From Paenibacillus polymyxa (lineage in GTDB: Bacteria > Bacillota > Bacilli > Paenibacillales > Paenibacillaceae), in assembly GCF_015710975.1 (NCBI RefSeq), contig NZ_CP049783.1, forward strand, positions 1,367,501-1,431,500: a DNA stretch of 64,000 bases. Reading direction: 5' to 3'. Made by a program: the position numbers and the translations under genes. The notes below the pieces were generated by a model. The model worked only from the letters and a program-made list of their open reading frames with translations, did not search any database and was not told the origin of the DNA. The first letter of the stretch is position 1; each line of letters starts with the position of its first letter. Below are positions 35,356-64,000 of the stretch, one piece after another.

Positions 35356-35630
35356 AGTACAACAACTCCTTTTTACGAATTAGAATTCTATAGGGCTATG
35401 CCACTTGGCACCAGCTCTCCTAAACATACAGTGTAGCTGTTCTGAAAATAACATGACCGGAACAGATCTGAATGATTCATGTTCATTTTCAGATCGAAGC
35501 TCACAGTAAAAGTGTACCCTGTCGTTCGACAAATGAACCGTGAGCGCTTCCTCAAAGCTGGACAGACCCGCTTTCAAGGCATATAATCGTCGTAGTAAAC
35601 CCGAATAAACGAACCCATTAAACCATACAA

Positions 35631-35722
35631 TGCCAGGGGTGCTGGAATCGGCCGGCTGAGAGTGTGTCCCAAGACACTGACCCTTACAACCTGATCTGGG
35701 TAATGCCAGCGTAGGAATGCTT
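35631..35722 (+). promoter_or_regulatory. TPP riboswitch (THI element)
   Basis: The conserved parts of the thiamine pyrophosphate aptamer are present in order: CCAGGGGTGCT (35633-35643), GGCTGAGA (35654-35661), a variable stem with GTGTCC/AGACAC, then ACCCTTACAACCTGATCTGG (35680-35699) and GTAATGCCAGCGTAGGAA (35700-35717). A terminator hairpin lies 60 bases further on. High TPP should therefore stop transcription before thiY. Confidence 0.96.
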
Positions 35723-35781
35723 AAGCAAGATGTGCCTTTTATTAAAACAGGACATCCCTTACTTTGGTATATACAAGCGCA

Positions 35782-56614: not shown

Positions 56615-56848
56615 TGACCTCAGAATTCTTTCAACAATATTCGACCTTTTATACGGATAACCAGGTTGAATATCCATAAGAAGCGGGGCTTCTATAAAAC
56701 TCACACACATAATTTGATATATAGACATATTTAATGTGATAAAATAAACTTTTATTAAATAGTAAATCATGTTTAATCAGCCATTATATATTGGTAAATC
56801 AAACCAAGATAAGCTAGATAAAATTGCTTTTTTGTAAAGGAATTGAAT
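56615..56848. other. Intergenic region upstream of the AraC-type gene
   Basis: AT-rich. No gene, RNA or repeat recognised; it should carry the promoter of the AraC-type regulator. Confidence 0.35.
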
Positions 56849-57730
56849 ATGACAACAGACCAAAAAAACACCGAGGGCCTCTGGAACGGCGAACCTGTCG
56901 TAATTGTGCGCACTCCCTCCGCTTTTGCCAAGCAATCCCTTTTATATATTCAGGAATTAGGCTATTTCCAAAAAACCTCTGATTTTACAATAGAAAGGAA
57001 AGAACTCACCTCCTTTTTGCTTGTTTTTACGCTGTCTGGTAAGGGAGAATTACTGTACCGGGACAAGAAGTATATTTTAAAGCCTCATGATTTGTTTTTT
57101 ATTAATTGCGATGAATATTTACAATACAGCACCTCCGGTGATGAAGCCTGGGAGTTTATCAGCTTATACCTGTACGGCAACCTGATCGAACATTTTTACG
57201 AACAATTTGCCAAGCATAATAAACCGGTAATATCCCTGCACAATCCATATGTTATATTAGACAAGCTGCATGCACTAATCTGCGGGCAGTCTGATCGAAG
57301 CCTTTCCGGCGAGCTGCTAACGTCCAGACTCATTGGTGAAATACTGACGTATATTTTGCAGCATCCTTATGATCATCGGTATGTAAATGCAGGAACGCTC
57401 AGCGAAGTACGTCAGGTGCAGCAGTATTTGGACCAGTCCTACTGTGAGCGAATTACGCTGGACTCGCTGGCAGACATGTTCAACCTAAACAAATTTAATC
57501 TTGCTAAAAATTTCAAAAAACAGATTGGATTTTCTCCAATTGATTATCTCATTAATGTCCGGATCACAGCCGCTCAGGGATGGCTTAAAACCAGTGACAT
57601 ATCCATTGTGGATATCGCAAGGTACGTTGGGATTCCCAATACGAGCCATTTTATCAACCTATTCAAGGAACATGTAGGGGAAACACCTCATTCCTTCCGT
57701 AAAAAGTGGGGAAACCGCTCCAAACTGTAA
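56849..57730 (+). CDS. AraC-family transcriptional regulator
   Basis: 293 residues. A cupin-like ligand domain (about 35-165; FTLSGKGELLYRDKKYILKPHDLFFINCDEYLQY) and a C-terminal pair of helix-turn-helix units (about 190-288; ITLDSLADMFNLNKFNLAKNFKKQIGFSP and SIVDIARYVGIPNTSHFINLFKEHVGETPHSFRKK). AAAGGAATTGAAT precedes ATG 56849. Targets are not evident; no sugar or peptide genes lie beside it. Its stop is only 50 bases before the riboswitch. Confidence 0.9.
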   Translation: MTTDQKNTEGLWNGEPVVIVRTPSAFAKQSLLYIQELGYFQKTSDFTIERKELTSFLLVFTLSGKGELLYRDKKYILKPHDLFFINCDEYLQYSTSGDEAWEFISLYLYGNLIEHFYEQFAKHNKPVISLHNPYVILDKLHALICGQSDRSLSGELLTSRLIGEILTYILQHPYDHRYVNAGTLSEVRQVQQYLDQSYCERITLDSLADMFNLNKFNLAKNFKKQIGFSPIDYLINVRITAAQGWLKTSDISIVDIARYVGIPNTSHFINLFKEHVGETPHSFRKKWGNRSKL

Positions 57731-57783
57731 ATAGGAGGTCTCCTGTACTCCGTTTGATAGACGATAGACGCACAAGCTATTCA

Positions 57784-57862
57784 AGCTAATGGCAAAGCTG
57801 TCGAAAGACAGTGACGCAAAACTATAGGGCCTTCCTACTCGGATGGCAGCCAGTTACCAAGT
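57784..57862 (+). promoter_or_regulatory. Class I cyclic-di-GMP riboswitch (GEMM-I)
   Basis: The conserved core is present: AATGGCAAAGCTGTCGAAAG (57788-57807), with the GAAA tetraloop capping GCTGTC/GACAGT, then GACGCAAAACTATAGGGCC (57813-57831), a short loop, and GGATGGCAGCCAGTTACC (57841-57858) closing the second helix. GGCAAA, the GNRA loop, GACGCAAA and GTTACC are the GEMM-I invariants. The plus orientation means that it cannot serve the upstream AraC gene. The next plus-strand gene is the LPQTG adhesin at 59655, beyond the IS. Confidence 0.9.
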
Positions 57863-57869
57863 GAACGAG

Positions 57870-57893
57870 CTTTTTATTATGCCTTTTTACATA
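57870..57893 (+). other. Possible expression-platform hairpin after the riboswitch
   Basis: GAGCT and AGCTC arms flank two TTTTT runs (roughly 57867-57897). The stem is short, so a terminator function is only suggested. Confidence 0.35.
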
Positions 57894-57970
57894 GCTCCAT
57901 CACAAAATTGCTATACCTCTCTCGAAGAAAAAACCTTGATCACTATGATCAAGGTCAGATTGTCGAGAAA

Positions 57971-57998
57971 CCCCGTCTTTTTGAGACGTGGTTTTTTT
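57971..57998 (+). terminator. Terminator inside the left end of the IS
   Basis: AAACCCCGTCT and AGACGTGGTTT pair with one mismatch, followed by eight T residues on the plus strand. It would stop plus-strand transcripts entering the IS from the riboswitch side. Confidence 0.75.
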
Positions 57999-58039
57999 TT
58001 CTTTACATGAGAGATCTCTGGTCTCTGGAAAAACAAGGT

Positions 58040-59400
58040 TCACCCCTGTTTTTCCAGGCGATCCAGGTGGATCGCCATCTTCTTCATGTTCTGCACGGCT
58101 GCCGTCATGAGGGCTTGTTCCCTGACGTTCGGAAGTCCGCGCAAACGGCAATAGCGAAACCCATGGAGCTCTTTGGCATCCGCGAAGCTTCGCTCAATCG
58201 TCTCTTTTCGTTTGCGGTACAGCTGTTTCCCGGATGGGCTTAGCCGGTTGCTCCGTACCCACTCTTTGCTGTCTTCCCAGACATGCCGAGTCACCACTTT
58301 GCGGTGGTTTTTAGACTGAGTACACTGGCTCAGCAACGGGCAACGCTCGCACTGAGCCGGATCAGATGCATACTGCCGGTATCCCTTTCGGTCTGTCGTT
58401 CGGTAGGCTAATTCTTGTCCTGCTGGGCAAATATACACATTGTTCTTGGCATCGTATTCAAACTTCCATTTCGGAAACAGGCCTTGTTTGGGATGAAATC
58501 TTCGGTGAGCAATCACGGCAAAAATCTTTCGGCTTTGCAAACCTCGACAAATCGGCGTTGTTAAATAACCTGAATCTAGCGTAACAGCTTCTACTTGAAA
58601 AGCAAAACGTTCTCTTTGGCGGTCCAAACGGGACAAATAGGGGACGGAATCATGTACATTCCCCGGCGTCACGTGCACATCCGTAATCACATTGTACTTC
58701 ATATCCACTGTCCGGTGGTCCAGATAGAAGAAGCCTTCGGGCTTGCCATCACGGATCATATAGCCGCTGTCCGGATCTGTTTTGCTCACTTTAATTTCTT
58801 TTTCTTCGTTCACTTCCTCTCGAGATTTTAGGGCTTTTTTCCGTGGTTTTTCCGGTCCTCCTTCACCGCTTCATTCAGCTCGTCCATATAGTCTTTGGTA
58901 TTCTGTAATACTTGCTCTTTAGTGTACTGATGTTTGTTGGCATTGGCCTTGACGTGTGTAGAATCGGTGATGAGAACACGCCCGCCCACCATTCGGTGAG
59001 AGATCGCCTGCAGCACAATTTCATCGAAGATATCTTGAAAGATCGTAGTGTCTTTAAAGCGAGTACGACGATTCCAACTAATCGTCGAATGGTCCGGAAC
59101 TTTATCCGTTAAGCCCAGCCCCAGAAACCAACGATAAGCCAAGTTCGTTTGAATTTCACGCTCGAGTTGCCGTTCTGAGCGAATGCCATAGAAATAACCG
59201 AGAAAGATCATTTTAAACAATACCGTAGGATCAATGGCAGGACGCCCGTTGTCTGCACAATACAGCGGGCTTACCTTCTCATGAATAAAGGAGAAGTCGA
59301 TATAGGTATCCACTTTGCGAAGCAAATGATCTTGGGGCACCAGTTCTTCCAAGGAAACCAATTCAAAGGATTGTTGTTTGTCTCGATGAGATCGCAGCAT
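58040..59400 (-). CDS. IS1182-type transposase, two frames joined by a putative -1 frameshift
   Basis: Frame 1 (59400-58828) starts MLRSHRDKQQSFELVSLEEL and holds the N-terminal domain plus the first catalytic Asp region (LITDSTHVKANANK). Frame 2 (to 58040) continues with YLDHRTVDMKYNVITDVHVT, the second Asp (VTLDSGY), a Cys-rich CPAG...CERCPLLSQC motif and ETIERSFADAKELHGFRY with the catalytic Glu. The frames meet at AAAAAAG (58840-58834), in phase as A_AAA_AAG. A -1 slip there gives one protein of 453 residues, normal for the family. The alternative is a simple indel in the A tract that killed the gene. Confidence 0.85.
58834..58840 (-). promoter_or_regulatory. A_AAA_AAG slippery heptamer (candidate -1 frameshift site)
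   Basis: The zero-frame codons are GGA AAA AAG CCC TAA, so the heptamer is exactly in the phase required for -1 slippage and the zero-frame stop follows one codon later. After slipping, translation reads GCC CTA AAA and enters frame 2. Confidence 0.7.
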
Positions 59401-59545
59401 ACCAACACCGTCCGTTTCTATACAATAGTTACCTATATTATATAACATTAACGCGGTGTCGTCTTAAACAAATTTAACATAAAAATAGGCTGTCGAAACT
59501 TTCTCGACAGCCTGACCTTGATCACTATGATCAAGGTTTTTTTCT

Positions 59546-59654
59546 GTTGGGGTAGTCATGTCAACCTAGCATGCTGAATATACTAATTTCGAACTAGGAG
59601 GAGGGAAAGAAAACAATATAACACAACATAACCGCCGAAGCTTGCCATATTACG
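59546..59654 (+). promoter_or_regulatory. Truncated leader of the adhesin gene
   Basis: 109 bases between the IS end and the adhesin start. A TATACT (59579-59584) could be a -10 element, but no good -35 is seen. A strong AGGAGGAGGG (59596-59605) lies 50 bases before the annotated ATG, with no start codon at a normal distance. Confidence 0.45.
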
Positions 59655-62600
59655 ATGAATAGGAGAATCACTTGGAGCATGGGAACCAAAATAAATGTCA
59701 TGATTATTGCCTTATTGCTCATTGTCCAAAGCTTTTTCAGCACCACACTGGCTTACGCAGATCCTCCTGCCCCTGAACTGCCGCACAGTGCTGTATCCGA
59801 TCCTACAACCGTTACGGATGCTGTATATGCGGTCCCAAACCCTGAACCCCCTAAGGAGGTTCCGCCAAACACTGTCCCTTCCGTGCAAGGAGCAGCTCAT
59901 TCAAAGTCTCAAAAGGAAGCAGCTCCCCAGAGTATACTAACGAAGTTGAGTCTAACGGACGAAGCCGGACGTGTCATTGATGCGGTATATAATCCAGGTA
60001 GTACGTTCGACATTGGATCAGCTATCCAACTTGGCTATGAATGGGAGCTTCCTGACGATGCTTATAAAGCAGGGGATACCTTCACCTTTCACTTACCAGA
60101 ACAGTTTGTCATCTACACTGATATCTCATCTCCGCTAGTGACTACAGACGGGACCGTGGGGTTCTTTACAGTAGATCGTCAGGGTAAGGTCATCATGACC
60201 TTTAACCAATATGTAGAGAACCATTCCCATGTCAGCGGCAAACTGCAAATTAAAACCGAATTCACAAAAGAAACGGTGAAAGGCAGCACAGAAGTCATCA
60301 TTGCGATTCCAATTAAAGGCGGGGTTCAAACGGTCATCGTAAATGTGAAACCCCAGTCAGGGCCAAACTTAAGCAAGCAAGGAAAAATAAATGGCACCCA
60401 CCAGATCGACTGGGCCATTGATGTGAACAAACAGCTAAACACCGTTAAACACGCCCTCATTACTGATCCAACTCCTTCAGGACTGGAACTCGTGAGAGGC
60501 TCTATCCGACTCTATCATCTGCAAGTCAATATCGATGGCACGACCGTTGTCAAAGACCTAGTGAATGCGAGTAAATACGCCATTGAATCGGATCAAGCCG
60601 GGACCGGATTTGCAATTCGTTTTCAAGATGCTAGCATTAGCACTGCCTATCAGATCCAATACTCCACCCGCATTACTGGCAACGAAACTCGCTTTTCCAA
60701 CACAGCGACGCTTTCAGGGGATGCGATAGATAACGTTGCTGCCACCGCTACAGTTCAGGTGGAGCGTGGTGAATTTTTGTCCAAAAAAGTTGAAAAGTAT
60801 GATCATGCCACACAAACACTCTCGTGGGCCATAAGATATAACTTTGGCGAGACAAAAATCCCCGAAGCCAAAGCCCTTTTAATTGATCATTTCAACAAAA
60901 CTCAAAAATTGCTGCCCGGTTCTTTGAAAGTATTTAAGGGAAATACACTGGAGGAGCTTCCATCGTGGGCGTACACCGTCATCCCGGTTGACTATCCCGA
61001 CCGTAACGGCTTCAAACTTCAATTCAACTTCGACGTAGATTCAGCCTATACCATCCGATATCAGACCCAGGCTAGAGGCCGCGTCTATGAAGATGAAAAA
61101 ATTACAAACATCATCACCACAGATGGAACCCAGAAGATCATATCGACGGAAATCACAAGCGGAGTTATGACTAAAATGTATGACACGCCCAATTACAACA
61201 CGAAAGTCATACCTTGGGTGATCACCATTAATACAGACTCATACACCATGAAAAATATTGTCATTAAGGATGTGTTCCCTAATGGGGGCCTCGCCTTGTT
61301 GCCCGACACCCTGAAAATTCAAAGTGTTGACGGTACAACGGAACTCCTCGCGCCCATGGATTATGAGCTAGTTCCACGATCAGCGGACTATAAACAAGGG
61401 TTTACACTTATTTTTCATAAAACGATTCAGAAGGCTTATACGATCAAGTATTCAACCATCTATAATAATGACTGGAAAATAGATACGACGAAGCCCGAAT
61501 TTCGCAACAAATCCTTTATAGATTATCAGTATGAAAATGGTGAAACATCGTCGCATGAGGTGGAATGCCCGATCTGGCCGGACTTTATGACACAACGGAA
61601 CGGGGCCAAGCAAGGAAGCTATGATGCGAGCTCCAAACTCATTACCTGGGATATTAAAGCCAACTATAATCGCAAGATCCTGAATCATGCGGAAGTGAGA
61701 GATGTCTTATTGCAAGGTCAGAGGTTACTGCCTGGCTCCGTAAAAGTATACGATATGACCTTGCTGGGATGGTGGGATGGCGTACAAAAAGGGGCTGAAA
61801 TCCCGGCAGATCAATATACAATTATTCCTCCCACTAAACAAAATAGTAATGAATTGCGTATCCAGTTCAAGAAGCCAATACAGACTCCGTACTGGATTAC
61901 CTTTCAAACTTCATTGGAAGGAGAATTGATTGAAAAGGAAATTCATAATCGCGCTCTTCTACTGGATGGACAAAAAACCGTCTCCGATTGGGCAGCCCAA
62001 GTTACGGTACCTCATGGCGGGGAATATGTGTCTAAGGCCGGCGCACAAAATGGAAATAAGATCGACTGGAGCATTCGTATCAATGAAGGACAATCACATG
62101 TGTCCAACGCTAAAATAGTCGATCAGCCTAGCAACAACCAAATCTTAATTGTGGATTCCTTTCATTTATACTCTGCAATCATGGCTGCCAATGGAAATAC
62201 CACCAAGGGCACCGAATTAATCAAAAACCGAGATTACTGGCTTCACATCAAGACAGACACTCAGGGTCAGCAAACTTTTGAGCTTACTTTTGCCAAGGAT
62301 ATTTCCACTGCTTTTATTCTTGAATATCAATCGTTCATTCATGCTGAGGATAAAGCTAAGGTGAGCAACAAGGTTGCTTTTGCAGGAGATCGTTTGACGA
62401 CAGAACTGCGGGAAACCAGTCAGGAAATCATCGTACGAACGTCTTCCGGCTCCGGTTCTGGTGGGGGCGTAACCGAAACCCTTGAGCTGACCAAGGTAGA
62501 TCAGGATGCTCCCAACAGGGTACTGCCTGGCGCCCGGTTTGCGCTCTATGATAAGGGACAAAAAAGAGCACCGCTTATACAAACGACCAATGCGGAAGGC

Positions 62601-63224
62601 AAAATCATCTTTTCCTCCTTGCTTCATGACGATTACATTTTGGAAGAATTGGCAGCACCGGAGGGGTATGAAATAACAGAGGGTAAGCTTGAGATCAGAA
62701 TAGACGCAGCACTCCAACAAAGCTCTGGCATAAAGAGGGTTGTGATCACCAATCGTAAAGAAAAGAAAAACGAACCCGAAACACCTGTAGACCCGGGCAC
62801 ACCTACCCACCCAGAGCCGTCTCCCCCAGCGGGAGGCTCCGGAAAAAAACATGATAAAGATCCCGAGGTGCCCGTGACACCATCTATAACCGTTCCTCCG
62901 TCACTGCCAAGGCCCCCGGAAGGCATTGTCCCTCCACAGAAGGAACCCACACCCACACCGCCACCAGCAGCCCGGGAGGAACCCAAAGCACTGCCTGAAC
63001 CACCAGCCGTCATGCCTCAAGATCCGTCTCCTCCAGTGGAACCGAACGACGAGCCCAAACCTAAAATCCGTCTCCATGAGCCGGAGAAAGAGCCGGAGGA
63101 GCCACCTGCAGTGCATCAGTTGCCCCAAACAGGAGAAAGTAGCCCCGTTCCGTTTTATTTGGCAGGCATTGCCATGATTATATGCGGCGTATTTTTGAAA
63201 TTTAGACGGACAAACAAAAAATAA
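59655..63224 (+). CDS. LPQTG-anchored multi-domain surface adhesin
   Basis: 1189 residues. A signal peptide (about 10-36, ending LAYA) is followed by about five to six repeated Ig-like adhesin domains (about 95-930) of the SdrG/collagen-binding type, each with a GxIDWxIxxN-like strand (HQIDWAIDVN, QTLSWAIRYN, KVIPWVITIN, KLITWDIKAN, NKIDWSIRIN). A SpaA/Cna-B domain (about 936-1035) has LTKVDQD (Lys), LEELAAPEGYE (Glu) and VVITNRK (Asn), the set for an internal isopeptide bond. A Pro-rich wall spacer (1038-1154), LPQTG (63120-63134), a hydrophobic helix and a KFRRTNKK tail complete a sortase substrate. No good ribosome binding site precedes ATG 59655; ATG 59679 has AGGAG 13 bases upstream. Confidence 0.9.
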   Translation: MNRRITWSMGTKINVMIIALLLIVQSFFSTTLAYADPPAPELPHSAVSDPTTVTDAVYAVPNPEPPKEVPPNTVPSVQGAAHSKSQKEAAPQSILTKLSLTDEAGRVIDAVYNPGSTFDIGSAIQLGYEWELPDDAYKAGDTFTFHLPEQFVIYTDISSPLVTTDGTVGFFTVDRQGKVIMTFNQYVENHSHVSGKLQIKTEFTKETVKGSTEVIIAIPIKGGVQTVIVNVKPQSGPNLSKQGKINGTHQIDWAIDVNKQLNTVKHALITDPTPSGLELVRGSIRLYHLQVNIDGTTVVKDLVNASKYAIESDQAGTGFAIRFQDASISTAYQIQYSTRITGNETRFSNTATLSGDAIDNVAATATVQVERGEFLSKKVEKYDHATQTLSWAIRYNFGETKIPEAKALLIDHFNKTQKLLPGSLKVFKGNTLEELPSWAYTVIPVDYPDRNGFKLQFNFDVDSAYTIRYQTQARGRVYEDEKITNIITTDGTQKIISTEITSGVMTKMYDTPNYNTKVIPWVITINTDSYTMKNIVIKDVFPNGGLALLPDTLKIQSVDGTTELLAPMDYELVPRSADYKQGFTLIFHKTIQKAYTIKYSTIYNNDWKIDTTKPEFRNKSFIDYQYENGETSSHEVECPIWPDFMTQRNGAKQGSYDASSKLITWDIKANYNRKILNHAEVRDVLLQGQRLLPGSVKVYDMTLLGWWDGVQKGAEIPADQYTIIPPTKQNSNELRIQFKKPIQTPYWITFQTSLEGELIEKEIHNRALLLDGQKTVSDWAAQVTVPHGGEYVSKAGAQNGNKIDWSIRINEGQSHVSNAKIVDQPSNNQILIVDSFHLYSAIMAANGNTTKGTELIKNRDYWLHIKTDTQGQQTFELTFAKDISTAFILEYQSFIHAEDKAKVSNKVAFAGDRLTTELRETSQEIIVRTSSGSGSGGGVTETLELTKVDQDAPNRVLPGARFALYDKGQKRAPLIQTTNAEGKIIFSSLLHDDYILEELAAPEGYEITEGKLEIRIDAALQQSSGIKRVVITNRKEKKNEPETPVDPGTPTHPEPSPPAGGSGKKHDKDPEVPVTPSITVPPSLPRPPEGIVPPQKEPTPTPPPAAREEPKALPEPPAVMPQDPSPPVEPNDEPKPKIRLHEPEKEPEEPPAVHQLPQTGESSPVPFYLAGIAMIICGVFLKFRRTNKK

Positions 63225-63245
63225 ATGCAATCTACCTGCCCTGAT

Positions 63246-63280
63246 CTTCCGTTTCATTCCCGAGTGGAATGAGACGGAAA
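63246..63280 (+). terminator. Hairpin between adhesin and sortase
   Basis: CTTCCGTTTCATTCC pairs with GGAATGAGACGGAA with one or two mismatches. Seven T residues follow after a short TGGGGCA stretch. It may reduce, rather than stop, read-through into the sortase gene. Confidence 0.65.
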
Positions 63281-63335
63281 TGGGGCATTTTTTTCAAAGT
63301 ATGTATCATCCGTACATTGCTTAGGGGAGATGAGG

Positions 63336-64000
63336 TTGCTGAATCTGCGTAAACTTTCCTATCTGTTTATTGGGTTGGGCTTACTCTTTATTTTGTTTCC
63401 TAAAGCGACCGAATGGAATGAGGATCGAGAACAACACAAGCTGTTACAAGCAGCGGAGTTATCTCTAGAAAAAAGCAATTCGGTATTGCCTTCTAGTCTT
63501 GCAGACAGCTATGCTCGCTTGTCCACTCGGGTTGCGGAAGCTCCGGTTAGTGAGGCACGGCAACATACCTTTCCATCCCCCGCTCCCAATGCCAGCGTTA
63601 ATGAACAAACTCCCATAGCCACTATTAGCATAAGTCGTATTGCTTTAAAGCTCCCTGTGTTGGAAGGAGCGACGAGGAAAAATATGAAATATGCGGCAGT
63701 ACATATGCCGGAAACGGGAAAGCTGGGACAAGTGGGGAATGCTGCTATTGCTGCTCATCGAGCCCGTACTCCCGGACGTTTATTTAATCGTCTTCATGAA
63801 CTGAAGATTGGAGATAAAATTGTTGTTAACGCTCAAGGTAGCCAGTATATGTATAAAGTTTACAGCATAAAGGTAGTCGATCCAATGGACGTGTCTGTTC
63901 TGAAAAGCTTCAAAAACCATAAGCTGCTCACGCTAATTACATGCGACCCTCTCGTGAATCCCACCCATCGTCTCATTGTTCAAGCCAAGTTAAGCACCTA
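63336..64000 (+). CDS. Sortase (class D-like), cut by the right edge
   Basis: A membrane transpeptidase that should anchor the LPQTG adhesin. The frame is open to the window end, about 221 residues from TTG 63336 (six bases after GGGGAG; ATG 63330 is right next to that site). The last two bases are TA, so a stop may fall at 63999-64001. One N-terminal helix (about 8-22) leads to a linker, then the sortase barrel with catalytic His in AAHRARTPGRLF, Cys in LLTLITCDP and Arg in THRLIV. TLxTC is the usual sortase signature; the short size and single N-terminal anchor fit class D, though class A or C cannot be excluded. Confidence 0.87.
   Translation, partial: MLNLRKLSYLFIGLGLLFILFPKATEWNEDREQHKLLQAAELSLEKSNSVLPSSLADSYARLSTRVAEAPVSEARQHTFPSPAPNASVNEQTPIATISISRIALKLPVLEGATRKNMKYAAVHMPETGKLGQVGNAAIAAHRARTPGRLFNRLHELKIGDKIVVNAQGSQYMYKVYSIKVVDPMDVSVLKSFKNHKLLTLITCDPLVNPTHRLIVQAKLST

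Follow-up and report, generated by a model that had tools for sequence, protein, structure and literature searches.

Organization of the locus

The window, i.e. the whole stretch of 64,000 nucleotides analyzed here, ends in a surface-protein locus in which a c-di-GMP-I aptamer, an IS1182-family element, a large adhesin and a sortase follow one another downstream of an AraC-type regulator gene (Table 1). The aptamer, which the earlier note had recognized on the plus strand, matches its Rfam covariance model with 67.2 bits against a gathering cut-off of 35 (E = 5.4e-11). In a profile search the adhesin contains Collagen_bind, Big_8 and SpaA domains (PF05737 in five stretches, PF17961, PF17802) and an LPQTG sorting signal at 63120–63134 (TIGR01167, 24.4 bits; cut-off 15.9). 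With scores far above the cut-offs for the aptamer and the protein domains, and an empty site in three other genomes, the arrangement is more than chance. The repeated collagen-binding fold together with the LPXTG signal identifies the protein as a sortase-anchored adhesin of predicted collagen-binding type, and its reported order with a sortase on the plus strand is what we find, the PF04203 protein starting at 63330.

Table 1. Features of the riboswitch–element–adhesin locus (window coordinates)
Feature	Position	Strand	Basis or remark
AraC-type regulator gene, upstream neighbour	56843-57730	+	AraC domains
c-di-GMP-I (GEMM-I) riboswitch aptamer	57781-57861	+	Rfam RF01051, 67.2 bits
Left hairpin copy, ACCTTGATCACTATGATCAAGGT	57933-57955		perfect 23-bp direct repeat, 23/23
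IS1182-family element of 1559 bp with leftward-reading transposase	57956-59514	-	second-copy borders, NF033551
Left inverted end, CAGATTGTCGAGAAA	57956-57970		end comparison
Element-borne terminator-like hairpin with T run, facing aptamer transcripts	57974-58000	+	stem 57974-57988
ORF B of the transposase (DDE part; -1 frame with respect to ORF A)	58040-58813	-	PF13751, overlapping open frames
Transposase ORF A (DUF772 part)	58828-59448	-	PF05598
AAAAAAG heptamer where ORF A and ORF B overlap, candidate site of -1 frameshifting	58834-58840	-	
Right inverted end, reverse complement CAGGCTGTCGAGAAA	59500-59514		end comparison
Candidate hybrid promoter TCGACA-16-TATGAT, spanning the element end and the hairpin	59504-59531	+	10/12 matches
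Right hairpin copy with full T run, terminator directly ahead of adhesin	59515-59537		
Conserved block after terminator, possible promoter or regulatory region of adhesin	59538-59600	+	identity to L008/L009/L010
LPQTG surface adhesin, 1189 aa	59655-63224	+	ORF intact; start possibly ATG 59679
Sortase, stop codon just past window edge	63330-64000	+	PF04203; open-frame end in L139

Borders and transposase of the element

An insertion sequence of about 1620 bases with 45-base inverted ends had been described between aptamer and adhesin. Its presence and family assignment hold, whereas its length is 1559 bp and its inverted ends comprise 15 bp, 13 of them identical by eye (CAGATTGTCGAGAAA / CAGGCTGTCGAGAAA), the remaining bases being a 23-bp target duplication in the form of a hairpin. 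A second copy in the same genome (G000:C1:5779313-5780871; 1 mismatch in 1559) matches the window over 57955–59515, where the match ends, and is flanked by another hairpin; the border hairpin thus differs between element copies within one genome.

The transposase is encoded in two overlapping frames. ORF B exceeds the cut-off of the IS1182 model NF033551 (285.8 bits; cut-off 270), and ORF A alone, covering model positions 3–177 of 488, stays below it with 218.9 bits. Overlapping frames, always in a -1 relation, recur in 11 of 15 related copies (exceptions L073, L075, L076 and L083), and we think it unlikely that the split represents a broken transposase gene. The AAAAAAG context was found in 6 of the 15 copies by the pattern used; no significant RNA structure was detected around the heptamer (z = 1.16; 179 of 200 shuffles fold as well).

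The two hairpin copies are identical at all 23 positions. The left one lacks a T run on the plus strand and retains it for leftward transcription, giving a terminator-like site on the minus strand. The plus-strand terminator that the earlier note ascribed to the element (57971–57998) is matched at its left end by a terminator-like hairpin with T run, and terminator-like sites lie at both element ends, facing outward as well as inward.

Target preference within the genus

Among the matches listed, 15 distinct elements were complete, with the motifs of either end and 45 bases of flanking sequence, and 12 of these are enclosed by a direct duplication of an entire hairpin of 17–31 bp (10 perfect, two with 1–2 mismatches). 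No simple duplication is seen in the remaining three, of which L039 and L069 form a composite pair and L121 does not fit. Hairpins adjoin 63 of 68 distinct element ends, compared to 24.5% of 20000 random positions, and hairpins with a T-rich tail 55 of 68, compared to 3.7%, where the control is the 64-kb window alone and the ends are non-independent, with two per element and sites common to related genomes. A hairpin is missing at the other five ends, and a small number of the 63 present are weak. The targets share no sequence consensus, as in the IS1272 type, but instead of being replaced without target duplication, as in that type, the stem-loop is duplicated whole in 12 of the 15.

Because at most four candidates were scored per genome, element copy counts are lower bounds; border examination covered 24 loci, another search scored 150 of 415 candidates, and the targets come from one genus. 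An Rfam search beside 20 of the other insertion loci gave matches only to a 5S rRNA, a tRNA and, marginally, a group II intron fragment, and to no other riboswitch.

Empty sites and gene order in relatives

The empty site sought in relatives is found in three genomes of the same genus (L008, L009 and L010), where the same adhesin comes directly after the aptamer and the joined flanks of the window align through one hairpin into the adhesin gene. By coordinates, the empty-site distance from the aptamer end to ATG 59655 is 211 nt (235 nt to the alternative ATG 59679), which replaces the leader of 175–180 bases estimated earlier.

Aptamer matches are present in 25 of 75 genomes, the other 50 having none. 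Four genomes with an aptamer but no adhesin within ~1.5 kb (G030, G031, G047 and G065; ORFs viewed for L028 of G030 only) were left out, and 21 loci were compared, 4 with one aptamer and 17 with tandem aptamers, relatives being represented by one genome per species. One relative carries a name, L091 being P. farraposensis. In all four one-aptamer loci the aptamer lies ahead of the adhesin. In all 17 tandem loci two aptamers are followed by a transglutaminase-like gene, after which come a hairpin with a T-rich tail (equalled by 0 of 340 shuffles) and an adhesin; an element between aptamers and adhesin was seen in none of them. A diguanylate cyclase (GGDEF) gene is present in 11 of 17 tandem loci and an AraC gene upstream likewise in 11 of 17, absence here meaning absence at the sensitivity of the homologue table (one query per gene, E 1e-6, ≥35% query coverage, stretches of 13.5–19 kb). 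Over the whole set, 15 of the 21 loci, among them that of the window, have an AraC homologue with 71–100% identity ahead of the aptamer. In 20 of 21 loci a terminator-like hairpin immediately precedes the adhesin; in L157 it precedes the sortase, which there comes before the adhesin. One terminator scan omitted the L008 hairpin, probably counting the T run into the stem, and a second script listed it.

The distribution of gene orders suggests how the locus arose. The terminator seems to be older than the adjacency of aptamer and adhesin, and the target of the element looks like the old terminator of the transglutaminase-like gene. The clade of the window appears to have lost the second aptamer together with the transglutaminase and cyclase genes, a loss that would have left the remaining aptamer and the old terminator side by side.

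Model of the insertion

We consider it probable that a hairpin-seeking, hairpin-duplicating IS1182-family element landed in the single terminator between the c-di-GMP-I aptamer and the adhesin–sortase pair. The empty site, the element borders and the whole-hairpin duplication, here and elsewhere in the genus, can be read from the sequences themselves. The element would seek intrinsic-terminator hairpins and duplicate the whole hairpin upon insertion, and the ancestral terminator would have stood behind a transglutaminase-like gene that was headed by a riboswitch and belonged to an operon often including a diguanylate cyclase gene. As the left hairpin copy lacks a T run, aptamer transcripts would run into the element and be expected to end at the terminator that it carries, irrespective of c-di-GMP concentration, while the right copy, keeping its T run, would act as a terminator just ahead of the adhesin. 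Judging from these terminator-like sites, the element and the duplicated terminator together should block any read-through from the aptamer's promoter, and the riboswitch can probably no longer reach the adhesin gene. This would leave the adhesin silent, unless it is expressed from a promoter downstream of 59538 or from one where element and hairpin meet.

Regulation of the adhesin

The earlier note took the adhesin to have been c-di-GMP-controlled and uncoupled by the element. This is partly supported: the empty site exists and read-through should be blocked, but prior control is hypothetical. Genuine c-di-GMP switching of adhesin transcription, similar to Bacillus thuringiensis Bc2-cap, would account for an aptamer scoring above cut-off and preceding the adhesin in every one-aptamer locus; Bc2 itself, in the consulted part of its description, offers the precedent of a c-di-GMP-I ON switch with terminator and collagen adhesin (PMC4933901). 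Moreover, the joined, IS-free leader of the window contains a strong possible antiterminator, AGUGAACGAGCUUUUU with AAAAACCUUGAUCACU (−11.7 kcal/mol; 0 of 1000 shuffles as good). Prior control is nevertheless in doubt, because all 17 tandem loci put the transglutaminase-like gene and a terminator-like hairpin behind the aptamers, so that the terminator seems to predate the arrangement, and because the antiterminator is convincing only in the window's leader: it is at shuffle level in L008 and L009 (53% and 54% of shuffles as good) and weak in L010 (11.5%). In a folding model of the four one-aptamer leaders, the antiterminator enters the minimum-energy structure of the window leader only (2.12 expected pairs, compared to ~0 in the other three). 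Neither shuffling nor folding revealed an antiterminator common to the four leaders, and the folding model gave no ON or OFF logic shared among them. We regard such a switch, uncoupled by the element, as quite possible while leaning slightly against it.

Alternatively, the adhesin–sortase pair may have its own promoter after the terminator, in which case the element would occupy a gap where it does no harm, with one transcription unit on either side, and the insertion would be nearly neutral. The intact adhesin ORF and the terminator-like hairpin that almost always stands directly ahead of the gene (20 of 21 loci) agree with this arrangement. The block at 59538–59600 has identities of 95, 86 and 92% to L008, L009 and L010, compared to 88, 91 and 84% for the aptamer, and is the best conserved leader segment relative to L008 and L010, two of the three relatives; conservation after the terminator would fit a promoter belonging to the adhesin. 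In the comparison with L009 a deletion within the block brings its conservation below that of the aptamer. However, scanning the window and L008 yielded no convincing sigma-A promoter after the terminator, and the intact ORF may only reflect a recent insertion. We hold this arrangement to be plausible, if a little short of persuasive.

A new, c-di-GMP-independent promoter could also have formed from a −35 hexamer (TCGACA) in the right end of the element and a −10 hexamer (TATGAT) in the hairpin, with a start just past the hairpin that would escape termination. The candidate has 10 of 12 consensus matches at 16-nt spacing, but the region holds four such matches compared to 3.3 ± 1.8 in shuffles, so chance is a sufficient explanation and we judge the promoter improbable. 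Finally, the symmetric placement of the two hairpins could make them part of 45-bp inverted ends of the element itself, an assignment that can be dismissed almost with certainty, as other copies carry different hairpins and the empty sites hold one hairpin at exactly the same place.

Implications

Beyond insertion into the terminator, a wider reading, in which this IS1182-family lineage copies an entire terminator hairpin to both its sides and here severed what was left of a c-di-GMP feedback operon, appears to us evenly balanced between acceptance and doubt. If true, each insertion would be wrapped in two outward terminators in addition to its own inward ones, and the element could enter terminators in leaders and between genes, leave the genes unbroken and sever regulatory RNAs from the genes they adjoin. 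The feedback operon would comprise aptamers, transglutaminase-like protein, adhesin, sortase and diguanylate cyclase.

The many copies, with empty sites for one, provide natural cases of the whole-stem-loop duplication drawn as a possible branch in the consulted part of PMC5678879, and the locus would be an example of a regulatory RNA severed from its neighbour by a terminator-preferring element. In the part of the literature searched, neither a riboswitch severed by an IS1182-family element nor a whole-hairpin duplication observed for one is described. A riboswitch-led surface-protein locus that includes a diguanylate cyclase gene in 11 of 17 tandem cases suggests a testable feedback circuit, which in the clade of the window seems to have decayed step by step.

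Comparison with known systems

The tandem c-di-GMP-I loci and the window represent the same locus type, with an adhesin downstream and, in 11 of the 17 tandem loci, AraC upstream; the tandem loci differ in having two aptamers and a transglutaminase-like gene, in the frequent presence of a diguanylate cyclase gene and in showing no intervening element that we could see.

IS1272 and TnSha1, IS1182-family elements of Staphylococcus, target hairpins without sequence consensus, several of them proven terminators, and remove the stem-loop or part of it with no target duplication, according to the consulted portions of PMC4923244 and PMC5678879. Duplication of the whole stem-loop appears there as 'pathway b' drawn for IS1272-like transposition (PMC5678879), and an excerpt of PMC12056078 already notes that target duplication may or may not accompany the action of IS1182-related elements. 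The window element shares the transposase family and the hairpin targets, but duplicates the whole stem-loop, as do 12 of the 15 complete elements with it included, the outcome of pathway b, and encodes its transposase in two overlapping frames.

In the Bacillus cereus group, the Bc2 c-di-GMP-I riboswitch with cap/cbpA is reported, in the sections consulted, to be an ON switch with the terminator next to the ORF (PMC4933901, PMC7423583). Both Bc2 and the window present a c-di-GMP-I aptamer, a terminator and then a large collagen-binding LPXTG adhesin, predicted as such in the window, where, unlike in Bc2, the coupling is a candidate only, the terminator seemingly goes back to an upstream gene since lost, the adhesin is followed by a sortase and an element intervenes. 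At the level of its abstract, CD2831 of Clostridioides difficile, a riboswitch-controlled sortase substrate linked to collagen binding (PMC6447587), resembles the window in combining a riboswitch with a sortase substrate.

Locus organization and element borders

The window contains the aptamer, IS1182-family element, LPQTG adhesin and sortase in the order described in the earlier note, whose observation is largely right given corrected element borders. A second copy of the element in the same genome shows 1 mismatch in 1559 bases; the match spans 57955-59515 and ends there, and this copy is bordered on both sides by another hairpin, AGACCGTCCGTAGACGGTCT. Because the match stops at these positions and the flanking hairpin differs, we assign the element to 57956-59514 with 15-bp ends and regard the hairpin as the duplicated target. 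The inverted pair at the borders comprises 43 nt, of which 23 nt form a palindrome that recurs in direct orientation without a mismatch; the 45-base inverted ends proposed before are a mixture of element ends and duplicated target hairpin. The transposase consists of two overlapping ORFs with AAAAAAG inside the overlap, and among 15 related copies, with identities reaching down to about 75%, 11 have frames that overlap in a -1 relation. This looks like a putative programmed frameshift; a search for a stimulatory RNA structure at the overlap found none.

Features of the riboswitch-adhesin locus and a further riboswitch in the window
Feature	Position	Strand	Remarks
TPP riboswitch	35625-35734		69.5 bits
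AraC-type gene	ends 57730		50 bases ahead of aptamer
c-di-GMP-I aptamer	57781-57861	+	Rfam match
Hairpin, left copy	57933-57955		23-nt palindrome
IS1182-family element	57956-59514		1559 bp, 15-bp ends; borders from second copy in genome
Element's own hairpin	57974-58000	+	nine T; directly beyond left junction
Transposase	58040-59448		two overlapping ORFs
Hairpin, right copy	59515-59537		23-nt palindrome
Adhesin			1189 aa, ORF intact; five Collagen_bind stretches, Big_8, SpaA domains
LPQTG signal of adhesin	63120-63134
Sortase			follows adhesin

Empty sites and proposed origin of the terminator

The aptamer region was searched in 75 same-genus genomes, including the window's own, and 25 had a match. 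The empty site anticipated by the earlier note exists in three genomes (loci L008, L009 and L010), where the aptamer leads via a single hairpin to the same adhesin and the joined flanks align across it with 87%, 88% and 80% identity of the main aligned pieces, respectively. Compensatory changes in the stem, e.g. T-A in the window versus C-G in L008 and L009, indicate that hairpin pairing is kept.

Among the 21 loci compared, four (in G000, the window's own genome, G008, G025 and G027) have the gene order AraC, one aptamer, adhesin, sortase. The remaining 17 all carry two aptamers followed by a transglutaminase-like gene (PF01841 in both examples scanned; signal peptide by eye), with a hairpin and T-rich tail 3' of it. 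In 11 of these the stem contains GATC and resembles the window's hairpin; when these gaps were shuffled by dinucleotides, a hairpin of this kind arose in 152/340 cases and one as good as observed in 0/340. The next gene found after the hairpin is the adhesin in 16/17 loci, with the sortase first in L157. The six tandem loci in which no GGDEF gene was found (G010, G011, G017, G023, G041, G074) have weaker T tails, and at the search sensitivity applied they also showed no close sortase or AraC gene. No close transglutaminase homologue turned up in the window's genome (best match 33% over part), where scoring 150 of 415 candidates gave one further c-di-GMP-I aptamer; this lies at G000:C1:492638-492719 (L088) and extends into the beginning of a long ORF (at least 535 aa), exported-looking by eye. 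In the simplest history, loss of the second aptamer and the transglutaminase gene would have brought aptamer and old terminator side by side; the cyclase gene would also have been lost in the window's lineage, and the element then inserted.

Of the 17 tandem, riboswitch-led adhesin loci, 11 (L142, L143 and nine more) have a gene for a GGDEF diguanylate cyclase downstream (PF00990 in both examples scanned); a feedback circuit is possible there. In L142, L146, L147 and L148 a second adhesin copy lies between the sortase and cyclase genes. The second tandem aptamer scores best as c-di-GMP-I-GGC in 16/17 loci (L142-L158, except L155). Since an SD-like purine stretch and the transglutaminase-like start codon directly follow it in the six loci looked at, the arrangement suggests translational control.

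Possible control of the adhesin before and after insertion

The aptamer exceeds the Rfam cut-off in all four one-aptamer loci, with the adhesin-sortase pair next after it, and there is a precedent in Bc2 of Bacillus thuringiensis, reported as a c-di-GMP-I riboswitch that turns a collagen adhesin ON (PMC4933901; cf. PMC7423583). Control by c-di-GMP before the insertion is nevertheless unproven. Against it, the terminator seems older than the aptamer-adhesin arrangement and a candidate antiterminator is strong in the window's leader only: shuffles were as good in 0/1000 cases there, in 11.5% for L010 and about 53% for L008 and L009, and of the predicted minimum-energy structures, only the one for the window's leader contains it (2.12 expected pairs versus about 0 in the others). 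The post-terminator block is the best conserved leader segment against L008 (95%; aptamer 88%) and L010 (92%; aptamer 84%); against L009, which has a deletion within the block, it reaches 86% and the aptamer 91%. A promoter scan found no convincing promoter 3' of the terminator in the window or L008, or on the plus strand just ahead of the aptamer in the window. The terminator scan of the same tool missed the L008 hairpin, probably because its T run pairs into the stem; a separate hairpin script did find it.

The left hairpin copy now adjoins the element end in place of its T run and for this reason should no longer stop rightward transcripts. Immediately beyond it, however, lies the element's own hairpin with nine T, which corresponds to the plus-strand terminator that the IS was said to bring, and the right copy retains its T run immediately ahead of the adhesin. 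By terminator scan, the left copy and the element's right end are also terminator-like on the minus strand. With such sites on both strands, the element is probably insulated for both directions of transcription, and just a short RNA is expected from the aptamer. The proposed uncoupling of a c-di-GMP-controlled adhesin is half right: the severing is likely, the prior control unproven. TCGACA-16-TATGAT, which spans the right junction, may form a hybrid promoter, but the candidate is no better than chance.

Target preference of the element

The stronger finding is that the element seeks and duplicates terminators. A hairpin lies within 3 bases of 63/68 distinct element ends, a few of them weakly, versus 24.5% of random positions, and a hairpin plus at least four T in the next 8 bases at 55/68 versus 3.7%, the control being 20000 random positions in the window only and the 68 ends not mutually independent. 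The five ends without a hairpin occur one each in L042, L101, L109, L111 and L124. At most four candidates were scored per genome, so the copies counted are a lower bound. Direct duplication of the whole hairpin (17-31 bp) was found in 12 of 15 distinct complete elements, perfect in ten and with one or two mismatches in two. Of the remaining three, L121 showed no clear hairpin pair, and the other two form the arms of what appears to be a composite transposon in G027. The composite (L138, G027:C1:3000000-3010305) has two related copies enclosing about 7 kb of cargo that includes transporter-like, AraC-like and glycosidase-like ORFs (named by eye only); with the same hairpin on its outer flanks, it appears as if inserted into a terminator.

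According to PMC12056078, insertion of IS1182-related elements may or may not duplicate the target. The Staphylococcus elements IS1272 and TnSha1 of this family likewise target hairpins and terminators, but they remove the stem-loop and duplicate nothing (PMC4923244, PMC5678879), whereas here the whole hairpin is duplicated. The sequence patterns indicate that the lineage of the window's element behaves as drawn in pathway b of the PMC5678879 model, duplication of the whole stem-loop.
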